This document shows positions 8,821-20,574 of a stretch of DNA of 64,000 nt, one piece after another. The notes under the pieces are model-generated. The model ran no database searches, had not been told where the DNA came from, and worked only from the letters and a program-made list of their open reading frames with translations. Each line of letters opens with the position of its first letter. The first letter of the stretch is position 1. A program made the translations under genes and the position numbers. Source of the DNA: Pseudomonas oryzihabitans (lineage in GTDB: Bacteria > Pseudomonadota > Gammaproteobacteria > Pseudomonadales > Pseudomonadaceae); contig NZ_CP013987.1 of the NCBI RefSeq assembly GCF_001518815.1, positions 2,025,001 through 2,089,000 on the forward strand. Reading direction: 5' to 3'.

Positions 8821-9466
8821 GTTCATGCTCAAGGCGCTGTGGAAGGCCTTCCTCGATACCCTGACCATGGTCAGCGTGTCCGCGGCCATCGTCTGGTTCG
8901 CCGGCATCGCCCTGGCGGTGGTGCTGGTCACCACCGGGCGCGGCGCCATCTTCGCCGCGCCCACCCTCAACCGGGTGCTGGGCACGGTGGTCAACGCCTT
9001 TCGCGCCACGCCCTTCATCATCCTGCTGGTGGCTCTGATCCCGCTGACGCGGCTGATCACCGGTACCACCATCGGCGTCTGGGCGGCGGTGGTTCCCATC
9101 ACCCTCAGCGCCACGCCGTTCTTCGCTCGTATCGCCGAGGTCAGCCTGCGCGAAGTTGGCGGTGGGGTAATCGAGGCGGCCCAGGCGCTGGGCTGCGAGC
9201 GGCGCCACATCGTCTTCAACGTGCTGTTGCCCGAGGCGCTGCCCGGCATCATCGGTGGCTTCACCGTGACCCTGGTAGCCATGATCGGCGCCTCGGCCAT
9301 GGCCGGCGCCATCGGCGCGGGCGGGTTGGGCGACCTGGCCATCCGCTACGGCTACCAGCGCTACGACACCCAGGTGATGGCCGTGGTGATCGCCATCCTG
9401 GTGATGCTGGTATGCGGTATCCAGTTCATCGGCGACCGCTACGTGCGGCACCTGCGGGCTCGTTAG
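8813..9466 (+). CDS. metI: Methionine-type ABC transporter permease MetI
   Basis: This 217-residue permease has about five membrane helices and the EAA coupling loop ([11 protein letters not shown] near residue 122, then G-x9-LPEALPG). That is the size and layout of MetI. I start at the ATG inside the end of metN, an 8-base overlap, since a start 14 codons upstream would add a non-membrane leader not seen in the family. Its stop overlaps by four bases the stop of the convergent GntR regulator gene. Confidence 0.9.
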
Positions 9467-10476
9467 CTGAGGCGCTCCAGATAGGACGGCAGTTCCGGGT
9501 CGGGCAGCACCGACAGTACCTTGAGCCGCTGCAGGGTGCGGTCGCGGCCGCGCAGGAGGTGGTTGCGCAACTGGCTGGCCGCCGCATCGGGACTGCCCAC
9601 CAGCAGGGATTCCAGCACCAGGCGATGCTCCACCAGCACCGCCTCGTCCAGCGGGGTGCCGAGCGACTGGTGGAAGATGCGTGACACATTCAGCGGACTC
9701 TGGCTGTGAGCGATGAGCTGGGCCAGCTTTCGATTGCGCAGACCGGCCAGGCAGCGCCCATGCAGATCCGCCTCGATGCGCTCCACCGCCGCCCAGGAAG
9801 TGGGGGCGGGCTGGTCGCCCAGTTGCTCGAGCCGTTCGAGCATATCCAGCAGTTCGCTGCGCGCCAGCCCCGGCGCGGTCTGCAACAGCGCCTCGGGTTC
9901 CAGGAGCGCGCGGATCTCGTAGTCGTCGCGGATGGCCTGGGCGGTGAGGGGGCCGGCCAGCCACTGGCCATAGGGCTCCTTTTCCACCAGGCCGCGATCG
10001 TGCAGGCGCATCAGGGCTTCGCGGACCACGGCGCGACTGACGCCCAGGTGGTCGGCAGCCGGCTGCTCGTCCAGCCGGAAATGGCCGAAGAGCATGGCGT
10101 GGCTGACGCAGGCGGCGATTTCGTCGCCGACCCGCTCGCCCAGGGAGCGCGTATCGATCAATTCGTCGCTGCTGTCCAGGCCGAGCAACTGCCGCGTCAG
10201 CGGCTGACGCTGCGGCTCGCCCGCGGTACCGACCGGATCGATCAGGTAGCCGCGCCCCTCGAAGCGGCGAATCAGGCCTTCCTCCTGCAGCAGCGTCAGC
10301 GCCTGGCGCACCGGTACCCGGCTGGTGCCGAACAGTTGCGCCAGCGGCGCCTCGACCAGCACCAGCCCCGGCGCCGCACGGCCGGCCAGGATGGCTTCGC
10401 GCAGTGCACTGCGGATCATCGCGTAGCGCGCGGCGGTACGACTGTCATCGAGGGGGGCGGGGACTGCTGCCGACAT
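9463..10476 (-). CDS. GntR-family regulator with two winged-helix domains and FCD domain
   Basis: This 337-residue protein begins with a GntR-type winged helix (about residues 15-75, recognition region LAQLFGTSRVPVRQAL). A second one follows (about 100-165, AADHLGVSRAVVREAL), and then an all-helical FCD ligand domain to the end. Ordinary FadR-type FCD regulators are about 230 residues with one winged helix. I start at the ATG with GGAAGG upstream rather than 38 codons earlier, which would extend over the intergenic region. It diverges from the amidase operon and probably controls it through the inverted repeat at 10720-10752. The same two-helix layout recurs at 34559-35479. Confidence 0.85.
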   Translation of the reverse strand: MSAAVPAPLDDSRTAARYAMIRSALREAILAGRAAPGLVLVEAPLAQLFGTSRVPVRQALTLLQEEGLIRRFEGRGYLIDPVGTAGEPQRQPLTRQLLGLDSSDELIDTRSLGERVGDEIAACVSHAMLFGHFRLDEQPAADHLGVSRAVVREALMRLHDRGLVEKEPYGQWLAGPLTAQAIRDDYEIRALLEPEALLQTAPGLARSELLDMLERLEQLGDQPAPTSWAAVERIEADLHGRCLAGLRNRKLAQLIAHSQSPLNVSRIFHQSLGTPLDEAVLVEHRLVLESLLVGSPDAAASQLRNHLLRGRDRTLQRLKVLSVLPDPELPSYLERLS

Positions 10477-10719
10477 CGGGGACCTTCCGGAAACGAGATG
10501 AGAATTGTGGCACAGGCCCACGGCCTTTCGCGCGTTACCGGTGGGGTCAGGTACACGCACGGTAACGGGGCAGGCGTTACGGTTCTGCACAAAAATGGAT
10601 CTATTTAATTTAAGTACATTTTATTGGCTTGGGGTGAGGGCAGGTTCAGATCACCCCTATTGCCTCTATTTGCGAGCGGGCTGCGGCCTTTTGCTAAAGC
10701 TGGCACAAAGCCTGCTCTA

Positions 10720-10752
10720 TTAAACGTACCAAATTATAAAATGTACGTTTAA
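10720..10752. promoter_or_regulatory. Inverted repeat TTAAACGTAC-N13-GTACGTTTAA, probable operator
   Basis: Perfect 10-base arms (10720-10729 and 10743-10752) flank an AT-only core, with 23 bp between arm centres. The right arm runs into the AAGGAG ribosome site of the amidase gene, so a bound repressor would cover the transcription start region. The best candidate binder is the divergent GntR regulator at 9463-10476. Confidence 0.65.
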
Positions 10753-10761
10753 GGAGTGATG

Positions 10762-12117
10762 ATGGAATCCGCTCAAGCCCTGGCAATGGATGCGGTCGGT
10801 CTCGGTGAAGCCTATGCCGCCGGGACCCTCGATCCGGTCGCGGTATTCGAAGCGGCCCTGGGATGCGCCCAGTCTTCCTCTTCCGTCTTCATCACCCTGA
10901 CGATGGCACGCGGTCGCGCCGAAGCCCTGGCTTCCAGGGAGCGCTGGCGCGCTGGGCAGCCGCGTTCCCCGTTGGATGGCGTACCCCTGGCCTGGAAGGA
11001 CCTCTTCGATCTGCAGGGAGAGATCACCACCTGCGGTGCCGAACTTCGCCGCGCAGCGTCGCCTGCCACGATCGATGCCGTCATGGTCCAGCGCCTGAGC
11101 CAGGCTGGGCTGGTCAGCCTGGGCAAGGTCAATCTCAGCGAGTTCGCCTATTCCGGCATCGGCTTGAATCCCCATTTCGGTACGCCCGCCAACCCGTGGG
11201 CGAGCGGCGAGGTGCGTATCCCGGGAGGCTCCTCTTCCGGTTCGGCGGTGGCCGTCGCCGCGGGGATCGTACCCCTGGCCCTCGGCACCGACACTGCCGG
11301 GTCGGTACGCCTGCCGGCCGCCCTCAATGGCCTGGTGGGCTATCGCCCCAGCCTGGGTCGCTATCCGGCGGCTGGCATCTTTCCGTTGGCCGCCTCCTAT
11401 GACGCGCCGGGTCCGCTGGCGCGCAGCCTGCGTGACGTGCAGTGCCTGGATCACCTGCTGGTGGGCGGCGCTGCTCGACCGCTGCCGGCGGCAACGGATC
11501 TGCGGGTGGTGCTGGATGTGAGCGTGCTGGACGATGCCCGGATAGAGCCGGCGGTGCGAGCCAATCTGCTGGCCGCCGCCGAGCGGCTGGCCCGTGCCGG
11601 GGTGAGTGTGGAGCGCCGCGCTCGTACGGTCTTTGCCGAGGCCCTGGAGTTTCTCGCCGAGGAAGGCTGGCCAGGTGCGGTGGAGGCCTTCGCGCTGCAC
11701 CGCGACGTGCTCGACGGTCCCGACGCCGCGCACCTGGATCCGCGGGTACGGCAGCGCCTGGAGCGTGCGCGGGCGTTGCCGGTCGACCATCTGGCCGTTC
11801 TGCATGAACGCCGCGATCAGCTGCGGGCGCGCTTTGCCGCCGAATTCGCCGAGGCCCTGCTGCTGGTGCCGACAGTGAGCCGCGTGGCGCCGCTGCTGGC
11901 CCCTCTGGAAGCCGACGCTGATCTGTTCGCCGCCACCAATCTGGAGCTGCTGCGCCTGACCATGGCCGGGAGCCTGCTCGGTGCGCCTGGCGTATCGCTA
12001 CCGAGCGGCCGCGATGCCCAGGGCCTGCCCACCGGCCTGCTGCTGGTGGCCCCGGCGGCGGCGGACGAGCGCCTGCTCGATGCCGCCACGATCCTGGAAG
12101 CTCAGCTCCGCGTCTGA
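10762..12117 (+). CDS. Amidase, amidase-signature family
   Basis: This 451-residue enzyme has the Ser-cisSer-Lys machinery of amidase-signature hydrolases: Lys in PLAWKDLF (about residue 77), cis-Ser in GGSSSGSA (about 156) and nucleophile in GTDTAGS (about 180). The family hydrolyses amides, ureides and carbamates to acid plus ammonia or amine. Of three adjacent starts I choose the ATG at 10762, which sits five bases after a perfect AAGGAG. It opens an operon that continues through the deacetylase, carrier, dehydrogenases and COG0523 GTPase. The substrate is not evident. Confidence 0.9.
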   Translation: MESAQALAMDAVGLGEAYAAGTLDPVAVFEAALGCAQSSSSVFITLTMARGRAEALASRERWRAGQPRSPLDGVPLAWKDLFDLQGEITTCGAELRRAASPATIDAVMVQRLSQAGLVSLGKVNLSEFAYSGIGLNPHFGTPANPWASGEVRIPGGSSSGSAVAVAAGIVPLALGTDTAGSVRLPAALNGLVGYRPSLGRYPAAGIFPLAASYDAPGPLARSLRDVQCLDHLLVGGAARPLPAATDLRVVLDVSVLDDARIEPAVRANLLAAAERLARAGVSVERRARTVFAEALEFLAEEGWPGAVEAFALHRDVLDGPDAAHLDPRVRQRLERARALPVDHLAVLHERRDQLRARFAAEFAEALLLVPTVSRVAPLLAPLEADADLFAATNLELLRLTMAGSLLGAPGVSLPSGRDAQGLPTGLLLVAPAAADERLLDAATILEAQLRV

Positions 12118-12189
12118 TTTCAAGCGGCGGTGGCGGGGGCCCGGCTCCGCGATCGACCTGTGTCTGTCCGGGTACTGGAGGTTGCAACG

Positions 12190-13071
12190 ATGGCCAAAGA
12201 AATCTTCGTTTCCATCGGCGTCGACGTCGACGCGGTGGCAGGCTGGCTCGGCTCCTACGGCGGCGAGGATTCGCCCGATGACATCTCCCGCGGGTTGTTC
12301 GCCGGCGAGGTGGGGGCGCCGCGGCTGCTCAAGCTGTTCGAGCGCTACGGCCTCAAGACCACCTGGTTCATTCCGGGGCATTCGGTGGAAACCTTTCCCG
12401 AACAGATGCAGGCGGTGGCCGCGGCAGGTCACGAGATCGGCATCCACGGCTACAGCCACGAGAATCCCATCGCCATGACCCCCGAGCAGGAAGAGGCGGT
12501 GCTGGACAGGTCCATCGAGCTGATCACCACCTTGGCCGGCAAGCGGCCCACCGGCTACGTGGCGCCCTGGTGGGAATTCAGCCGGGTCACCAACGAGCTG
12601 CTGCTGAAAAAAGGCATCAAGTACGACCACAGCCTGATGCACAACGACTTCAGTCCCTATTACGTGCGGGTGGGCGACAGCTGGACCAAGATCGACTACA
12701 GCCAGCAGCCCGAGAGCTGGATGAAGCCCCTGGTGCGCGGCCAGGAAACCGACCTGGTGGAGATCCCGGCCAACTGGTACCTCGACGACCTGCCGCCGAT
12801 GATGTTCATCAAGAAGGCACCCAACAGCCACGGCTTCGTCAATCCGCGCCATCTGGAAGAGATGTGGCGCGACCAGTTCGACTGGGTCTATCGCGAGATG
12901 GACTATGCCGTCTTCCCCATCACCATCCACCCCGATGTCTCGGGGCGGCCGCAGGTGCTGCTGATGCTCGAACGCCTGATCGAGCACATCCAGGGTCACG
13001 CCGGAGTGCATTTCGCCACCATGGACGAGATCGCCGACGACTTCCTGCGGCGCCAGCCGCGCCAGCGCTAA
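12190..13071 (+). CDS. Polysaccharide-deacetylase-family hydrolase, HP0310/PgdA type
   Basis: This 293-residue NodB-fold protein shows [12 protein letters not shown] at the start, HGYSHEN (zinc histidines, about residue 85), VAPWWEF and [11 protein letters not shown] near the end. From memory it is very similar to Helicobacter pylori HP0310 (PgdA), a cytosolic-type deacetylase without signal peptide or membrane anchor. Here too no export signal is seen, so a small intracellular N-acyl or amide substrate is more likely than cell wall. A GGAGG precedes the chosen ATG; an earlier in-frame start lies in the spacer. Metal dependence fits the COG0523 metallochaperone gene in the same operon. Confidence 0.87.
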
Positions 13072-13096
13072 GCGCCCAGCCCACAGGTACAGGACC

Positions 13097-14452
13097 ATGA
13101 CCCTCCCTGCCGCCAGCCCGCTCCATACGGAAACCACCGCTGCCTGGAAACCGCAGCAACTGTCTTCCGGTGATGTCCGCTATGCCACCTGGATCGCCTT
13201 CTTCGCCTGGGTGTTCGCCGTGTACGATTTCATCCTGTTCGGCACCCTGCTGCCGGTGATGGGTGGGCACTTCAACTGGAGCGAGGCCGAGCAGGCCGAA
13301 CTCGCCACCTGGGTGGCGCTGGGTGGGGCCATCATCGCCTTCGCCATCGGCCCGCTGGTGGACCGGATCGGTCGCCGCGGCGGCATCATCGTCACCATCG
13401 GCGGCACCGCCCTGTGCTCGGCGTTGACCGCGCTCTGTGCCGGCATGGGCAAGGTGCCATTGGTGCTGGTTCGCTCGGTCGCTGGCCTGGGCTACGCGGA
13501 GGAGGGGGTCAACGCCACCTACCTGACCGAGGTCTATGCCGCCTCCGACGATCCGCGGCTGATCCGGCGCCGGGGCTTCATCTACAGCCTGGTGCAGAGC
13601 GGCTGGCCGATCGGCGCCCTGATCGCCGCCGGGCTCACTGCCTTGCTGCTGCCCCACATTGGCTGGCAGGGCTGCTTCGTGTTCGCCGCCGTGCCGGCCT
13701 TCGTCATCGCGGTGCTGGCGCGCAAGCTCAAGGAGTCTCCGCAATTCCAGGTGCACGCCCGCATCCAGCGTCTGCGGCGCGAAGGCCAGGAGCAGGACGC
13801 CCGTGCCTTGGCCCACGAATACGGCGTGGACTACGAAGAGCACGCCAAGGCCGGCGTGGCCATGGCCTTCAAGGGCCAGGCGCTGCGCCCGACCCTGGTC
13901 TTGAGCCTGGCCATCCTGCTCAACTGGTCGGCGATCCAGGTGTTCAGCGTGCTGGGGACCTCGGTGATCGTCAGCGTGCACAAGCTCAGCTTCGAGAACT
14001 CGCTGTGGATCCTGGTGCTGTCCAACGCCGTCGGCTTCATCGGCTACCTGTTCCATGGCTGGCTGGGCGATCGCATCGGTCGGCGCAACACCGTGGCCCT
14101 CGGCTGGATGTGCGGCGGCGTGGCCTTCTTCGCCATGTTGCAGGCGCCGAGCCAGTTGGTACCAGTGGTGGCGCTCTACAGCCTGGGGCTGTTCTTTCTC
14201 ACCGGGCCCTATTCGGCCATGTTGTTCTTCATGGGCGAAAGCTTTCCCACCAGCATCCGTGCCACGGGTGGCGCCATCGTCCACGCCATGGGGCCGATCG
14301 GCGCCATCCTCGCCGGCCTCGGCATCACCAGCGTTCTCGGCAGCGGTGGCGAGTGGCACAGCGCCGCGCTCTGGTTCGGTGCCCTGCCGTGCTTTCTCTC
14401 CGGCCTGGTGATGTGGGCCGCGCGCCACGTCGAACCCACCAGCCTCAAATGA
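13097..14452 (+). CDS. MFS transporter (sugar/organic-acid type)
   Basis: This 451-residue carrier has about 12 membrane helices. It has two MFS signature loops, [12 protein letters not shown] after helix 2 (about residue 93) and [11 protein letters not shown] (about residue 320), and a central cytoplasmic loop of some 50 residues containing [15 protein letters not shown]. It lies 26 bases after the deacetylase gene with AGGA before the ATG. The position in the operon suggests uptake of the substrate that the amidase, deacetylase and dehydrogenases handle. The cargo is unknown. Confidence 0.88.
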
Positions 14453-14463
14453 CAGGAGCCTCG

Positions 14464-15234
14464 ATGAACGCTCACATTTCACCCGTTGCCCTGATCACCG
14501 GCGCCGCTAGCGGCATCGGCCAGGCCCTGGCCGTCACCTATGCCCGCCATGGCGTGCGGGTGGTCGGCGGCTACTACCCCGGCGATCCCCATGACCCCGA
14601 AGACACCCGGCGGCTGGTGGCCGCCGCGGGTGGCGAGTGCCTGCTCGAACCGCTGGACGTCAGCGACAGCGCCTCGGTGGATGCCCTGGCCGATGCCGCC
14701 CTGGCGCACTTCGGACGACTCGACTATGCCGTGGCCAACGCCGGTCTGCTGCGCGCCGCGCCGCTGCTGGAGATGAGCGATGAGCGCTGGCACGAGATGC
14801 TCGACGTCGACCTTACCGGGGTGATGCGCACCTTCCGAGCCGCGGCGCGGCACCTGGGGGAGGGCGGCGCCCTGGTGGCCATATCGTCCATCGCCGGCGG
14901 TGTCTACGGCTGGCAGGACCATGCCCACTATGCCGCCGCCAAGGCCGGGGTGCCGGGCCTCTGTCGCTCGCTGGCGGTCGAACTGGCGCCGCGCGGCATT
15001 CGCTGCAACGCGGTGATTCCCGGTCTGATCGAGACGCCCCAGTCGCTGGACGCCAAGAACTCCCTTGGTCCGGAGGGCCTGGCCAAGGCCGCCCACAGCA
15101 TTCCCCTGGGCCGCGTCGGCAAGCCCGAGGAGGTGGCGGCGCTGGTGCGTTTCCTGACCAGTACCGAAGCCAGCTACATCACCGGCCAAAGTCTGATCGT
15201 CGATGGCGGTCTCACCGTGCGCTGGCCCGATTGA
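14464..15234 (+). CDS. SDR-family NAD(P)-dependent oxidoreductase
   Basis: This is a classical 256-residue short-chain dehydrogenase with cofactor motif TGAASGIG (residue 11), the NAG motif (VANAGLL), active Ser in AISSIAG (about 140) and YAAAK (about 154). It starts at an ATG with AGGAG eight bases upstream, 11 bases after the carrier gene. The reading frame is open far upstream into the carrier gene, but only this start is credible. It probably oxidises or reduces an alcohol/ketone made from the substrate of the operon. Confidence 0.88.
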
Positions 15235-15244
15235 GGAGAAGAGC

Positions 15245-15994
15245 ATGTTCGAGCTGACAGACCGTCGCGCCCTGGTGACCGGCGCCGCCAGCGGGATCGG
15301 CGCCGCCATCGCGCGAGCCTATGCCGCTGCCGGCGCGCACCTGGTACTGGCCGACCGCGACGCCGAGCGACTGGCGCGGGTGGCCACGGAATGCCGTGCC
15401 CTGGGCGCGTCGGTGACGGAGACCGTCGCCGACGTTGGCCAGCCGGATGGCGCCCGAGCCGGAGTGGACGCTTGCGTGGCGGCTTACGGCGGCATCGACA
15501 TCCTGGTCAACAATGCCGGGATGCTGACCCAGGCACCCTGTGTCGACCTGACCCTGGAGCAGTGGAACGACATGCTGCGCGTCGACCTCACCAGCGTCTT
15601 TCTCGCCAGCCAGCACGCCCTGCCGCACATGCAGGCGCAGCGCTGGGGACGCATCATCAATGTCGCTTCCCAGCTCGGCATCAAGGGTGGCGCCGAGCTC
15701 TGCCACTATGCGGCGGCCAAGGCCGGGGTGATCGGCTTCACCAAGTCGCTGGCGCTGGAGGTGGGCCGCGACAACGTGCTGGTCAACGCCATCGCCCCCG
15801 GGCCCATCGAGACGCCCCTGGTGGACGGCATTAGCGCCGACTGGAAGGCAGCCAAGGCCCGCGAGCTGCCGCTAGGGCGCTTCGGGCGCGCGGAGGAGGT
15901 GGCGCCGGTCGCGCTACTGCTGGCCAGCGATCCGGGTGGCAATCTCTTCGTCGGCCAAACCCTGGGCCCCAATTCCGGCGATGTCATGCCCTAG
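15245..15994 (+). CDS. SDR-family NAD(P)-dependent oxidoreductase (FabG-like)
   Basis: This second, diverged dehydrogenase has 249 residues: TGAASGIG at residue 12, NNAG (about 88), catalytic Ser in NVASQLG and YAAAK (about 155). The C-terminus, VGQTLGPNSGDVMP, replaces the usual VDGG ending. The ATG has GGAG upstream and lies 10 bases after the preceding dehydrogenase. Two adjacent SDRs suggest two successive redox steps or a stereo-inversion through a ketone. This is inference. Confidence 0.87.
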   Translation: MFELTDRRALVTGAASGIGAAIARAYAAAGAHLVLADRDAERLARVATECRALGASVTETVADVGQPDGARAGVDACVAAYGGIDILVNNAGMLTQAPCVDLTLEQWNDMLRVDLTSVFLASQHALPHMQAQRWGRIINVASQLGIKGGAELCHYAAAKAGVIGFTKSLALEVGRDNVLVNAIAPGPIETPLVDGISADWKAAKARELPLGRFGRAEEVAPVALLLASDPGGNLFVGQTLGPNSGDVMP

Positions 15995-16003
15995 GAGGTA
16001 CCC

Positions 16004-16303
16004 ATGTGCGGACTCTGCGGCCTGCTCGGGCCAGATCTCCATTGGAGCGATCCCCTGGGCGACGACCTGCCGCGACGGCGCGAGCGCCTGCGTCGGGTCG
16101 CGGCCATCAACCGGGTGGTGGCGCCGTTCCGGCTCACGGTGAGCGACGTCCAGGGCGCCTCCTACCTGGTCCAGGGTCCGACCGGACGCCAGGCGCTGGC
16201 CGAGGGGCTGGACGATCTCTGGCGCCAAGCCGAGGGGGTGCTGGGGCGACCGCTCGATCCCCTGGATCCGCGCGTCCTGGCACCGCTGGAGGGGGCGCCA
16301 TGA
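16004..16303 (+). CDS. Hypothetical 99-residue protein beginning MCGLCG
   Basis: I do not recognise this small protein. It opens with MCGLCGLLG, so there is a CxxC pair at residues 2 and 5. That resembles the N-terminus of class II glutamine amidotransferases (Cys2 nucleophile), but 99 residues is far too short for that fold. The rest is charged (DLPRRRERLRR), has a central RLTVSD segment resembling a short beta strand, and has no membrane segment. A strong AGGAGG precedes the ATG and the stop overlaps the start of the COG0523 gene. Metal or cluster binding through CxxC, with the GTPase next door as partner, is a guess. Confidence 0.75.
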   Translation: MCGLCGLLGPDLHWSDPLGDDLPRRRERLRRVAAINRVVAPFRLTVSDVQGASYLVQGPTGRQALAEGLDDLWRQAEGVLGRPLDPLDPRVLAPLEGAP

Positions 16304-17289
16304 GCCTGGCGGTCAATGTCATCACCGGCTTTCTCGGGAGCGGCAAGACCACGCTGTTGCGGCGCCTGCTGGCCCAGGAAGCCCTGGGCGAGACGGCGCT
16401 GCTGATCAACGAATTCGGCGAAGTCGGCATCGACCACCTGCTGGTGGAAGAGGTGGCGCCCGATACCGTGCTGCTGCCCAGCGGCTGCGTCTGCTGCTCG
16501 GTGCGCGGTGACCTCAAGGAAGCATTGCTGACGTTGCACGGGCGCCGTAGTCGCGGCGAGATCCCGGCCTTTCGCCGGGTCCTGCTGGAGACCACCGGCC
16601 TGGCCGATCCCGGCCCCATCCTGGCCACGCTCAACCTCGATCCCCAGCTGCGCGGTCGCTTCCACCTGGGGCTCCTGGTGACGGTGGTGGACGCCGAGCA
16701 TGCCGCGCTGCAGGAAGGGCTGCACCCGGAGTGGCTCAACCAGGTCACCGCGGCCGACCGGCTGCTGCTGAGCAAGGCCGACCGGGTCGCGCCTGCCGTG
16801 CTGGAGCGGCTGGACCGGCAGCTGGCCCAGCTCAATCCCACCGCCACTCGGGCCCTGGCGGCTTCCGTGGTTAGTGGCGATGACCTGCTGCTGGGCGAAG
16901 GCCTGCGGGCCGCCGACCCGGCCGCCGAGGTCGGTCGCTGGCGCCTGTTCGCCGCGGTCGCCGAAGGCCGCCACGGCAGCGCCGAGGTCTGCTGCCTTGA
17001 GTTCGACCGGCCGCTGGACTGGATGGCCTTCGGGGTGTGGCTGTCGATGCTGCTAAGATGCCACGGGCAACGCATCCTGCGAGTCAAGGGCATCCTCGAC
17101 GTGATCGACGCCAGCCAACCCATCGTCATCCATGGCGTGCAGCACAGCCTGCATCCGCCGGTGCACCTGCCGGCCTGGCCGGCGGGCGAACGCCGCTCGC
17201 GCCTGGTATTCATCGTCCGTGACCTGGATACCGCGCTGCTCAGGCGCTCCTTCGCCGCCTTCATGGGCGGCCTGGGCCGGGCCGCATGA
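16300..17289 (+). CDS. COG0523 (CobW/ZNG1-type) GTPase, metal chaperone
   Basis: This 329-residue G3E GTPase has Walker A GFLGSGKTT (about residue 10), NEFGEVG, the metal-binding SGCVCCS (CxCC, about residue 65), switch ETTGLADP and the base-recognition region LLLSKAD. The CobW C-terminal domain follows. Such proteins deliver Zn or another metal to client enzymes at the cost of GTP. An in-frame extension upstream covers the previous gene in another frame and is rejected; the ATGA overlap fixes the start. The likely client is the metal-dependent NodB-fold hydrolase of the same operon (inferred). Confidence 0.9.
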   Translation: MSLAVNVITGFLGSGKTTLLRRLLAQEALGETALLINEFGEVGIDHLLVEEVAPDTVLLPSGCVCCSVRGDLKEALLTLHGRRSRGEIPAFRRVLLETTGLADPGPILATLNLDPQLRGRFHLGLLVTVVDAEHAALQEGLHPEWLNQVTAADRLLLSKADRVAPAVLERLDRQLAQLNPTATRALAASVVSGDDLLLGEGLRAADPAAEVGRWRLFAAVAEGRHGSAEVCCLEFDRPLDWMAFGVWLSMLLRCHGQRILRVKGILDVIDASQPIVIHGVQHSLHPPVHLPAWPAGERRSRLVFIVRDLDTALLRRSFAAFMGGLGRAA

Positions 17290-18470
17290 GCACGCCGCTG
17301 ACCCTGAGGGTGCTGGGCACCTCGGTGACCCTGCTCGAACCCATTCGCCAGCGGGCGGAGGCGGAGCTGGGCATCCGCCTGGTCTACCAGATCCACGATG
17401 TCCAGACCGCCCAGCGCATCGCCGTGCTGGAGCCGGGCAGCTACGATCTCTATGACCAGTGGTTCCACAACGTCGACTTCGTCTGGCCGGCGCGGGCGAT
17501 CCAGCCCATCGACATCCGCCGCATCGCGCTCTGGGAGGAAATCAACGATCTGCCCAAACGCGGGCGGCTGCACGCCACGGATCGCCTGGCGCCGGGCTGC
17601 CGGCCGTGCGACCGCCTCTATGTGCAGCACGACGGCAGCCTGGGCGGTCAGCCCAGCGAGCGCATCAGCATGCTGCCGCTGACCCACAACGCCGACAGCT
17701 TCGCCTACCGACCCGAAAGCCTGCCCACCGCCCTGGTCGGCCAGGAGGAGAGCTGGGCCTGGCTGATCGACGAGGGTTGGTGCGGCCACAGCGCCCTGCA
17801 GAGCGACGCTGCCATCGGTGCCCTGGACGCTGCCCTGGCGATCCAGGCAGCAGGTCTCGCACGCTTCGACGACATCGGCAACCTGCGCCTGGAGGAGATC
17901 GATCGCCTGGCCGAGCTGCTGGTGGAGCGCCAGCGGCATCGGCATTTCGCCGCCTTCTGGTCCGACGACCGCAGCGCCGGCGAGCTGACCCTGGCCGCCG
18001 GGGTGGACATCCAGAGTCTCTGGTCGCCGATGCTCATGGCCCTGCATCGCGCCGGGGTCGACTACCGGGTGGCGGTACCACGCGAAGGCTATCGGGCTTG
18101 GTTCGGCGGCCTGTCGCTGTCGCGTTGCGCCGAGGGACGGGTGCGTGATGCCGCCTATGCCTACCTCAACTGGTGGCTCGCCGGCTGGCCTGGCGCGGTC
18201 ATGGCCCGTCAGGGCTTCTACATCGCCAATCCGGTAAGGGCCAGGGATCACCTGAGCGCAGCGGAGTGGGATTTCTGGTACGGCGGTCTGCCAGCGCGGG
18301 AGGAGCTGTACGGTAGCGACGGCCTGCCGTTGATCGAGGTGGGTCAGCGTCGCGAGGGCGGTTCCTACGCCGAGCGCATGAGCCATATCGGCGTGTGGAA
18401 TTCGGTGATGGACGAGCACAACTATCTGGTGCGGCGCTGGAGCGAATTCTTGCGCACCACGGCCGCCTGA
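17286..18470 (+). CDS. PotD-like solute-binding protein lacking a signal peptide
   Basis: This 394-residue protein has the broad pattern of PotD/SBP_bac_8-type binders: an LRVLGTSV strand at the start, a YDLYDQW segment (about residue 58), LTHNADSFAYRP (about 135), and a C-terminal AAYAYLNWWLAGWPG helix. It starts directly at the first beta strand with no hydrophobic leader or lipobox, so it should stay in the cytosol. It overlaps the GTPase gene by four bases and ends the operon. It may be an enzyme or ligand sensor derived from an SBP. No transport genes accompany it. Confidence 0.75.
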   Translation: MSTPLTLRVLGTSVTLLEPIRQRAEAELGIRLVYQIHDVQTAQRIAVLEPGSYDLYDQWFHNVDFVWPARAIQPIDIRRIALWEEINDLPKRGRLHATDRLAPGCRPCDRLYVQHDGSLGGQPSERISMLPLTHNADSFAYRPESLPTALVGQEESWAWLIDEGWCGHSALQSDAAIGALDAALAIQAAGLARFDDIGNLRLEEIDRLAELLVERQRHRHFAAFWSDDRSAGELTLAAGVDIQSLWSPMLMALHRAGVDYRVAVPREGYRAWFGGLSLSRCAEGRVRDAAYAYLNWWLAGWPGAVMARQGFYIANPVRARDHLSAAEWDFWYGGLPAREELYGSDGLPLIEVGQRREGGSYAERMSHIGVWNSVMDEHNYLVRRWSEFLRTTAA

Positions 18471-18696: not shown

Positions 18697-19788
18697 ATGT
18701 CGCAGAACCCCGTCAAATTTGCCTATTGGGTCCCCAACGTCAGTGGTGGCCTGGTCGTCAGCACCATCGAGCAACGCACCCACTGGGGCATCGACTACAA
18801 CCGCACCCTGGCCCGGCTCGCCGAGCGGGCCGGTTTCGACTATGCCCTGACGCAGATTCGTTTCACCGCCGGCTACGGCGCCGAATACCAGCACGAGTCG
18901 GTGGCCTTCAGCCATGCGCTGCTGGCCGCCACCGAGCGTCTCAAGGTGATCGCCGCCATCCTGCCCGGCCCCTGGAATCCGGCGCTGGCGGCCAAGCAGC
19001 TGGCGACCATCGACCAGCTCACCAACGGCCGTATCGCCATCAACCTGGTGTCTGGCTGGTTCAAGGGCGAATTCCATGGCATCGGTGAACCCTGGCTGGA
19101 GCACGACGAGCGCTATCGCCGCTCCGAGGAATTCCTCCGTGCCCTCAAGGGTATCTGGACCCAGGACAACTTCAGCTTCGCCGGCGACTTCTATCGCTTC
19201 CGCGACTACACCCTGAAACCCAAGCCGCTGCAGCAGCCCCATCCAGAGATCTTCCAGGGTGGCAGCTCGCGGGCGGCACGGGACATGGCGGCGCGGGTTT
19301 CCGACTGGTACTTCACCAACGGCGGCACCCGCGAGGAGATTCGCGTCCAGGTGCAGGACCTGCGCGCCAAGGCCACGGCGGAGGGGCGTGAGGTCAAGGT
19401 CGGGGTGAATGCCTTCATCATCGCGCGCGACACCGAGACCGAGGCGCGCGAGGTGTTACGGGAGATCGTGGCGAAGGCCAACCCGGAGGCGGTCAAGGCC
19501 TTTGGCGATGCGGCGCGCCAGGCTGGTGCTGCCAGCCCGGAAGGCAAGGGCAACTGGGCCGACTCCAGCTTCGAGGACCTGGTGCAGTACAACGACGGCT
19601 TCAAGCCGAACCTGATCGGTACGCCCGAACAGGTCGCCGAGCGCATCGTGGCCCTCAAGGCCGAAGGCGTGGACTTGGTGCTGGCCGGTTTCCTGCATTT
19701 CCAGGAGGAGGTGGAGTATTTCGGCCAGCGGGTGCTGCCGCTCGTGCGCGAACTGGAGGCTCGGGCCGCCTCCCAGGCCGCGGCCTAG
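18697..19788 (+). CDS. sfnG: Dimethyl sulfone monooxygenase SfnG
   Basis: This 363-residue luciferase-like flavin monooxygenase closely resembles P. putida SfnG, which uses FMNH2 to turn dimethyl sulfone into methanesulfinate. Marks are FAYWVPNVSGG at the start, the ALTQIRFTAGYGAE segment (about residue 50), SGWFKGEF (about 120) and GGSSRAARDMA (about 190). It is a single gene with 226 bases upstream. I see no clear sigma-54 -24/-12 pair there, although sfn genes in P. putida depend on SfnR and sigma-54. The FMN reductase partner (SfnF or MsuE) is not in the window. Confidence 0.92.
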   Translation: MSQNPVKFAYWVPNVSGGLVVSTIEQRTHWGIDYNRTLARLAERAGFDYALTQIRFTAGYGAEYQHESVAFSHALLAATERLKVIAAILPGPWNPALAAKQLATIDQLTNGRIAINLVSGWFKGEFHGIGEPWLEHDERYRRSEEFLRALKGIWTQDNFSFAGDFYRFRDYTLKPKPLQQPHPEIFQGGSSRAARDMAARVSDWYFTNGGTREEIRVQVQDLRAKATAEGREVKVGVNAFIIARDTETEAREVLREIVAKANPEAVKAFGDAARQAGAASPEGKGNWADSSFEDLVQYNDGFKPNLIGTPEQVAERIVALKAEGVDLVLAGFLHFQEEVEYFGQRVLPLVRELEARAASQAAA

Positions 19789-19971: not shown

Positions 19972-20574
19972 TTGAACAAGACCTCCTACAACGCCATTGC
20001 CGACACCTTCCGCCAGACCCGGATCAGCCTCAGAGACGACGAGCGTCGCTATCTGGCGCTGCTGCTGGAAAATCTGGCACCCGGCGCCACCGTGCTCGAT
20101 CTGGGCTGCGGCACGGGCACGCCGGTCGCCGCCGCCATCCTGGCCGAGGGGCATCGCGTGCTCGGTGTCGATCAGGCCGCCGCCATGCTGGCTCACGCGC
20201 GACGGGAATTCCCCAAGCAGCGCTGGATAGAGGCGCGCCTGGAAAACTACGCCTGCGCGGAACCCTACCAGGGCGCGCTGCTCTGGGATTCGTTGTTCCA
20301 CCTGGAGCGCCGCTGGCACGGGCCCGTCCTGGCGCGAGTGGTCGCCGGGCTGCCAGCGGGCGGGCGACTGATGCTGACGGCAGGTGGTTCTGGGAGCGAT
20401 GCCTTCGTCGATACCATGTTCGAACAGCCGTTCTTCTACGACTCCCATCCGCCGGAGGTGCTGCGGGGCCTCCTGCTGGAGCAGGGCGTGCGCATCCTCG
20501 TCGACGAATTCATGGACCTGCCCGATGGCGGCAGGAACCGCGGACGCTGCGCCTTCGTCGTCGAAAAACCTTGA
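19972..20574 (+). CDS. Class I SAM-dependent methyltransferase
   Basis: This 200-residue methyltransferase has motif I VLDLGCGTGTP (about residue 41), an acidic end of strand 2 (VLGVDQ) and a C-terminal FVVEKP strand. The start appears to be TTG with GGGAG eight bases upstream; no ATG lies close by. It sits between sulfur genes but is separated from sfnG by a stem-loop and shows no feature tying it to sulfur use. The substrate is unknown. Confidence 0.75.
   Translation: MNKTSYNAIADTFRQTRISLRDDERRYLALLLENLAPGATVLDLGCGTGTPVAAAILAEGHRVLGVDQAAAMLAHARREFPKQRWIEARLENYACAEPYQGALLWDSLFHLERRWHGPVLARVVAGLPAGGRLMLTAGGSGSDAFVDTMFEQPFFYDSHPPEVLRGLLLEQGVRILVDEFMDLPDGGRNRGRCAFVVEKP

Follow-up and report, generated by a model that had tools for sequence, protein, structure and literature searches.

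To our knowledge, the breakdown of cyclic imides is known mainly from isolated enzymes. Here, we describe an eight-gene operon (positions 10762-18470) in a 64,000-nucleotide stretch of the Pseudomonas oryzihabitans genome (contig NZ_CP013987.1, positions 2,025,001 to 2,089,000; hereafter the window), which likely represents an inducible system that degrades either a cyclic imide or a hydroxylactam convertible into an imide by oxidation; we infer both the substrate and every catalytic step. One of the closest described systems is the fungal hxn pathway, in which the enzyme HxnM is proposed to open the ring of 3-hydroxypiperidine-2,6-dione, acting between the short-chain dehydrogenase/reductase (SDR) HxnW and the amidase HxnN (PMC9304392, PMC8478523). 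HxnM shares 64.2% identity with the imidase AAY98498 of P. putida YZ-26, and its nearest relative in structure is 3qbu (PMC9304392, PMC8478523), the structure of H. pylori HP0310. The clade of HP0310 includes both the YZ-26 imidase and HxnM (PMC9304392). HP0310 itself is a tetramer with a small, buried active site, showed no activity on the polysaccharides tested and is described as lying close to an enzyme whose substrate is a small cyclic imide (PMC3084791).

The eight open reading frames of the operon all lie on the + strand, separated by +72, +25, +11, +10, +9, -4 and -4 bp. Recomputation thus reproduced the seven tight junctions, the two ATGA overlaps and the longest spacer of 72 bp that a first-pass annotation of the window had reported for eight genes. 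An alignment of the NodB-fold enzyme, referred to below as the imidase after its proposed function, was scanned against contigs of GTDB species and yielded at least 566 relatives. The best 80 by imidase identity, together with seven loci from whole genomes, form the set of 87 loci used here, in which distant relatives are under-sampled and two contigs are counted twice (L128 is the same contig as L084, and L129 the same as L060). Gene presence across the loci was scored by tblastn, with a threshold of >150 bits for the amidase count and the COG0523 motif count. All eight genes are present in 48 of the 87 loci, and in 48 of these 48 they keep the same order and strand; with the duplicates removed, 46 distinct full-order loci are found among 85. 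The eight-gene form occurs in Pseudomonas, Burkholderia/Paraburkholderia/Caballeronia, Delftia, Halomonas, Pantoea, Enterobacter, Mangrovibacter and Prodigiosinella. In Rhizobiales loci such as L121, L126 and L130 the major facilitator superfamily (MFS) gene gives way to genes for an ABC transporter and a secreted binding protein belonging to it, and the genes for both SDRs, the imidase, the CxxC protein, the COG0523 GTPase, the signal-less PotD-like protein and the amidase are kept.

The regulator encoded divergently from the operon combines two tandem GntR winged helix-turn-helix stretches with an FCD ligand domain, as judged from Pfam. Among the 48 full-order loci, 40 have its orthologue on the opposite strand to the operon. 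Six of the remaining eight have it on the same strand (Burkholderiales type), and in L060 and its duplicate L129 the contig ends first. The operator is composed of two sites (10721-10736 and 10737-10752), the second of which overlaps into the Shine-Dalgarno sequence AAGGAG (10751-10756) of the amidase gene. A TAAAATGTACATTTTA-like site, defined by at most four mismatches and an intact GTAC core, is present in 36 of 38 Pseudomonas-type intergenic regions, compared to 0.19 expected from first-order-Markov resamples, the motif having been picked after k-mer inspection of these same 38 regions, which are related to each other. Pairs of such sites 15-19 bp apart occur in 25 of the 38 regions, and six of 26 other intergenic regions contain a site. 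Conservation of the promoter palindrome is thus more than chance. Taken together, the identical order and strand in 48 of 48 loci and the conserved palindrome (36/38) show that the eight-gene set is a real, widely conserved single system of many soil and plant bacteria. The first-pass annotation had regarded the locus as one programmed system with one diverging regulator and one operator over the first ribosome site, and had named scattered homologues as the finding that would speak against it; in the genomes compared here the genes are not scattered, and its description of the regulator and the operator stands as well.

Table 1. Features of the operon and its control region (positions within the window).
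Feature	Position	Strand	Basis
Regulator, double GntR winged-helix + FCD	9463-10476	-	two PF00392 stretches + PF07729
Regulator-proximal operator-like site TTAAGTACATTTTA	10610-10623		sequence; similar sites in many Pseudomonas relatives
Operator pair, GTAC cores 17 bp apart	10721-10752		sequence; conserved motif
Amidase-signature hydrolase, proposed half-amidase	10762-12117	+	PF01425, 250 bits; NF004766
NodB-fold enzyme, HP0310/cyclic-imide-hydrolase clade, proposed imidase	12190-13071	+	PF01522; 3qbu
MFS importer (putative)	13097-14452	+	PF07690
SDR 1	14464-15234	+	PF13561/PF00106
SDR 2	15245-15994	+	PF13561/PF00106
MCxxCG protein, 99 residues, no known family	16004-16303	+	no Pfam match
COG0523 GTPase	16300-17289	+	cobW/CobW_C; Walker A GFLGSGKT, CVCC motif
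PotD/YdcS-fold protein, signal peptide not visible	17286-18470	+	fold match

The identity of the NodB-fold enzyme is central to the proposed pathway. Its nearest solved relative is HP0310 (3qbu; 537 bits over residues 1-292), and the next structural matches score far lower (3rxz with 124 bits, PuuE-type chains with 59-69 bits). The motifs GVDVDA (residues 10-15) and HGYSH (residues 86-90) are kept, with D12, D14, H86 and H90 invariant in our alignment; we take the Asp and the two His residues to be the metal ligands. Since the enzyme groups with HP0310, in a clade that holds the YZ-26 imidase and HxnM, it is probably a cytosolic cyclic-imide hydrolase, linked to AAY98498 through that clade. 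A secreted peptidoglycan or polysaccharide deacetylase was considered and rejected, as the Asp motif beginning at residue 10 leaves no room for a signal (judged from the annotated start, with no signal predictor run). Such a name is nevertheless in use: in ten plasmid regions, hand-picked for diversity from 97 records, the imidase is labelled 'polysaccharide deacetylase', and those regions that have the CxxC protein list it as 'hypothetical protein'.

Opening of an imide ring yields a half-amide, so that an amide hydrolase is needed as partner. The first gene of the operon could supply it: the encoded protein matches NF004766 (PRK06102 equivalog) with 569.3 bits, above the cut-off of 559, and contains K79 and a GGSSSGS motif at residues 155-161. 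A homologue of this amidase is present in the fetched stretch of 74 of the 87 loci. Elsewhere, an asparaginase-family gene adjoins the imidase gene or lies in its cluster, namely in Rubrobacter (L132, Actinomycetota), Rhizobium (L137), Thioclava (L138) and Nitratireductor (L083), and, by annotation only, near the imidase gene of the archaeon Haladaptatus (L136), whose imidase is 51% identical. An asparaginase in the amidase's place is what would be expected if the imide ring opens to a half-amide. Within about 9 kb of the imidase, an annotated amidase or asparaginase is found in nine of the ten plasmid regions (in Mesorhizobium, L133, only at 7.6 kb); none was found in the Haematobacter region (L134). 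The imide reading is also supported by further enzymes of cyclic-amide metabolism near the imidase, namely a D-hydantoinase in L127, caprolactamase alpha in L114, members of the old yellow enzyme (OYE) family in L114 and L110, and an Asp/Glu/hydantoin racemase in L038.

Based on these assignments, the compound would be imported by the MFS protein, which is nearest to the aromatic-acid/H+ symport subfamily with a score below that subfamily's cut-off. One or both SDRs would then oxidise it, possibly from a ring carbinol to the imide in the manner of HxnW in Aspergillus. SDR 2 carries an Asp after the second strand and is presumably of the NAD type. Going by its clade, the cytosolic NodB-fold metallohydrolase would open the imide ring to a half-amide, from which the amidase would release ammonia, a step that the asparaginase replacement elsewhere supports. 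The resulting dicarboxylate would enter central metabolism. The double-GntR/FCD architecture suggests a repressor that acts from the paired GTAC palindromes and would be released by an acid of the pathway.

The first-pass annotation had proposed the breakdown of an N-acylated or cyclic-amide compound, and for the latter it came near, as the imidase clade supports this substrate class. Its family calls agree with Pfam and NCBIfam for six of the genes, the CxxC and PotD-like proteins being without a Pfam match at E <= 0.001. The kinship behind its label 'HP0310-type deacetylase' is confirmed, the deacetylase part giving way to the cyclic-imide-hydrolase/HP0310 clade. Given this clade, the core of the gene set, which had been said to match no known pathway, fits the known chemistry of an imidase followed by a half-amidase.

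Several points weigh against the imide reading. The tie between the NodB-fold enzyme and AAY98498 is one of clade membership. No amidase homologue above the threshold was found in 13 of the 87 loci, including the Pseudomonas loci L058 and L059 (L117 ends downstream). The operon itself encodes neither an OYE nor a monooxygenase nor any other upstream step. Against an obligatory role of the CxxC and COG0523 proteins in supplying metal to the imidase, it counts that neither was found in the fetched stretch of three loci that carry the imidase (L135, L136, L137), a copy elsewhere in these genomes being possible. In addition, the YZ-26 enzyme is reported to show activity upon expression in E. coli, and the two observations weaken the case for an obligatory metallation. 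Finally, HP0310 has been reported as an acetyl/acetylxylan esterase that is active on chitin and chitosan (PMC3688963).

Three other explanations were weighed against this background. The one that survives best is a special case of the imide pathway, namely a bacterial counterpart of the lower fungal nicotinate route, in which a hydroxypiperidone would be converted to 3-hydroxypiperidine-2,6-dione by an SDR, to 2-hydroxyglutaramate by the imidase and to 2-hydroxyglutarate by the amidase. We regard this specific route as doubtful. The three enzyme families do occur in the order of action of HxnW, HxnM and HxnN, along with an MFS protein (PMC9304392), and locus L114 groups an OYE (the HxnT family), two SDRs, an amidase and the imidase, together with a caprolactamase alpha gene (1181.8 bits, cut-off 1000). 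However, OYE (PF00724) genes, also seen near the imidase in L110, were matched in only three of the 87 loci, one at 35% identity, and thus lie outside the operon core. Neither OYE nor a pyridine hydroxylase nor an HxnV-like monooxygenase was found in the eight-gene operon (the rest of the genome was not searched), and the SDRs are tied to HxnW by family membership. Furthermore, the authors of the fungal study exclude that hxnM was recently acquired from bacteria (PMC8478523).

According to a second, rather unlikely explanation, the NodB-fold enzyme would genuinely act as an N-deacetylase on a small N-acyl compound such as an acetylated polyamine or amino acid, the PotD-like protein marking a polyamine link. 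This would suit the NodB fold and the deacetylase naming, the reported activity of HP0310 on acetylated xylan and p-nitrophenyl acetate (PMC3688963), the resemblance of the PotD-like fold to YdcS and polyamine binders, and the polyamine-importer genes near homologues of HP0310 (PMC3084791). Yet HP0310 was inactive on N-acetyl-putrescine, -spermidine and -cadaverine and on N-acetyl dipeptides (PMC3084791), HxnM is proposed to act on an imide (PMC9304392), and the replacement of the amidase by an asparaginase in several clusters suits a half-amide product. The least probable explanation is a hydantoin or ureide pathway with the NodB-fold enzyme as allantoinase or hydantoinase and the amidase as carbamoyl hydrolase: although, of the characterised enzymes outside the clade, those of PuuE type are most closely related, and a D-hydantoinase (573 bits, cut-off 393) plus a carbon-nitrogen hydrolase lie near the imidase in L127 and an Asp/Glu/hydantoin racemase is present in L038, near the imidase, and in L096, identity as PuuE allantoinase was rejected (TIGR03212, 83.7 bits against a cut-off of 424.6), the P. 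oryzihabitans genome holds a separate 34% relative which is presumably the PuuE-type gene, and L127 already has its own hydantoinase.

The core chemistry of the proposed cyclic-imide pathway is of a known kind. The unexplained part, and the source of the system's interest, is the set of three conserved helper proteins: the CxxC protein, the COG0523 GTPase and the PotD-fold protein that has no visible signal peptide. The CxxC gene is found in 84 of the 87 loci, and in the other three (L065, L068, L076) the contig ends first. In a survey of 398 Pseudomonadota genomes, ten contain the imidase (E <= 1e-60) and 11 match the CxxC profile (E <= 0.001), namely the same ten and one weak match (2.9e-4, genome G376); the ten are not independent, as they include the genome studied here and four come from one genus. 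M1, C2, C5, G6, W14, R25, N36, T60, G61, W73 and D85 of the CxxC protein are kept in 45 of 45 alignment rows, which were selected for an MCxxC start and leave out four Burkholderia-type loci with a later start picked. Its AlphaFold model (pLDDT 81 overall, about 50 at the N-terminal motif) gave no convincing match in the PDB. The COG0523 gene directly follows the CxxC gene in 82 of 83 loci, the exception being L125 with a distance of 744 bp, and the CxCC motif is kept in 82 of 82 COG0523 relatives above the threshold, which leaves the weaker match of L127 (<=150 bits) outside this count. Fifteen subfamilies of COG0523 have been published. Compared with four paralogues from the same genome, the operon COG0523 proteins form one clade with support of 100/99, in a tree with long paralogue branches that leaves out two further cobW hits of this genome without a blastp match. 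The CxxC and COG0523 proteins may thus constitute a dedicated metal-supply module for the pathway, most simply for the imidase, whose metallation by the GTPase the first-pass annotation had also proposed.

The PotD-like protein has a solute-binding-protein fold nearest to YdcS and matches the NCBIfam YdcS model weakly (22.8 bits, cut-off 725). It starts with MSTPLTLRVLGT and has its first strand at residue 6, with no visible export signal. In line with the earlier call of a cytosolic protein, no signal peptide is visible in the imidase-linked orthologues inspected in other genomes; among 69 of them, an in-frame stop at most 20 codons upstream of the first strand excludes a signal in 23 and leaves it not excluded in 46. 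All members of the cytosolic set have H61, H378 and N379, none of which is present in nine secreted relatives. Four relatives without an imidase in the stretch (L034-L037) stand outside the 87 loci. One of them, 46% identical (L034, genome G167, 9875-11161), does carry a signal, so that the signal-less state is not a trait of every close relative; its gene stands before a membrane sensor-like gene, which suggests a sensory use of this secreted binding protein. The cytosolic protein of the operon may bind a pathway intermediate or be a client of the metal-supply module. A further-reaching idea, which we hold only tentatively and consider unlikely, is that the three helper proteins form a new unit for metallocentre maturation and substrate handling, in which the PotD-fold protein has left transport and now serves in the cytosol as a metal-dependent enzyme or carrier that works with the imidase in a bacterial imide or hydroxylactam route paralleling the fungal piperidinedione steps. 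The idea draws on H61, H378 and N379, which set the cytosolic proteins apart from the secreted relatives compared.

Downstream, 226 bp separate the operon from a gene for the dimethylsulfone monooxygenase SfnG (18697-19788; TIGR04021, 620 bits, cut-off 383), which is followed by a methyltransferase-like gene (19972-20574); SfnG lies near the operon in same-genus loci only. In a mostly Rhizobiales group (L099-L124), allophanate-hydrolase/5-oxoprolinase-type genes (KipI/KipA) stand beside the regulator about 10 kb upstream of the imidase, KipA-like matches amounting to 21 of the 87 loci, a few of them at other places in the stretch. In L107 a molybdenum hydroxylase is encoded some 7 kb away from the imidase, and on the Haematobacter plasmid (L134, 11243-13123) a match to 3-hydroxybenzoate hydroxylase 2dkh (863 bits) directly follows the imidase, CxxC and COG0523 genes. 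Plasmids of Klebsiella pneumoniae and K. variicola also carry the imidase gene (85.6% identity), as do conjugative plasmids in other bacteria; the gene can therefore move between genomes. In one same-genus genome (L044, 5276-6153; also L007) the imidase is split into two pieces that overlap slightly (residues 1-252 and 248-293), which is a frameshift or an assembly error.

With this operon, cyclic-imide breakdown appears as a widely conserved unit with its own regulator, transporter, redox steps and helper proteins. The operon assigns a COG0523 GTPase to one fixed pathway and offers a candidate client for it, so that the purpose of such GTPases can be tested directly. It also contains a conserved cytosolic protein of the solute-binding-protein fold for which nothing points to a role in transport. 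The P. putida YZ-26 imidase AAY98498 (EC 3.5.2.16) belongs to the HxnM/HP0310 clade by literature (PMC9304392, PMC8478523), and the window enzyme falls into that clade by sequence. HP0310 (PgdA), which resembles the window enzyme over 292 residues and likewise has no signal peptide (PMC3084791), differs in being named a peptidoglycan deacetylase; the comparison suggests that such HP0310-type 'peptidoglycan deacetylases' are possible imidases. As for the nitrile-hydratase activator Nha3, a COG0523 protein with a dedicated client, the GTPase gene is fixed in the cluster of one metalloenzyme (PMC2770081); the operon differs in that the GTPase gene comes after one for a CxxC protein, and in that the imidase is only a candidate client. 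Unlike the binding proteins PotD, PotF and YdcS, the PotD-like protein has no visible signal peptide, is encoded in an operon without a permease and carries the H61/H378/N379 set. With the fungal steps from HxnW to HxnN, the operon shares the SDR, imidase and amidase families as well as transporters, the fungal genes being induced by a pathway metabolite (PMC9304392). Compared to that system it has no OYE or pyridine monooxygenase, and it adds the CxxC protein, the COG0523 GTPase, the cytosolic PotD-fold protein and a second SDR.

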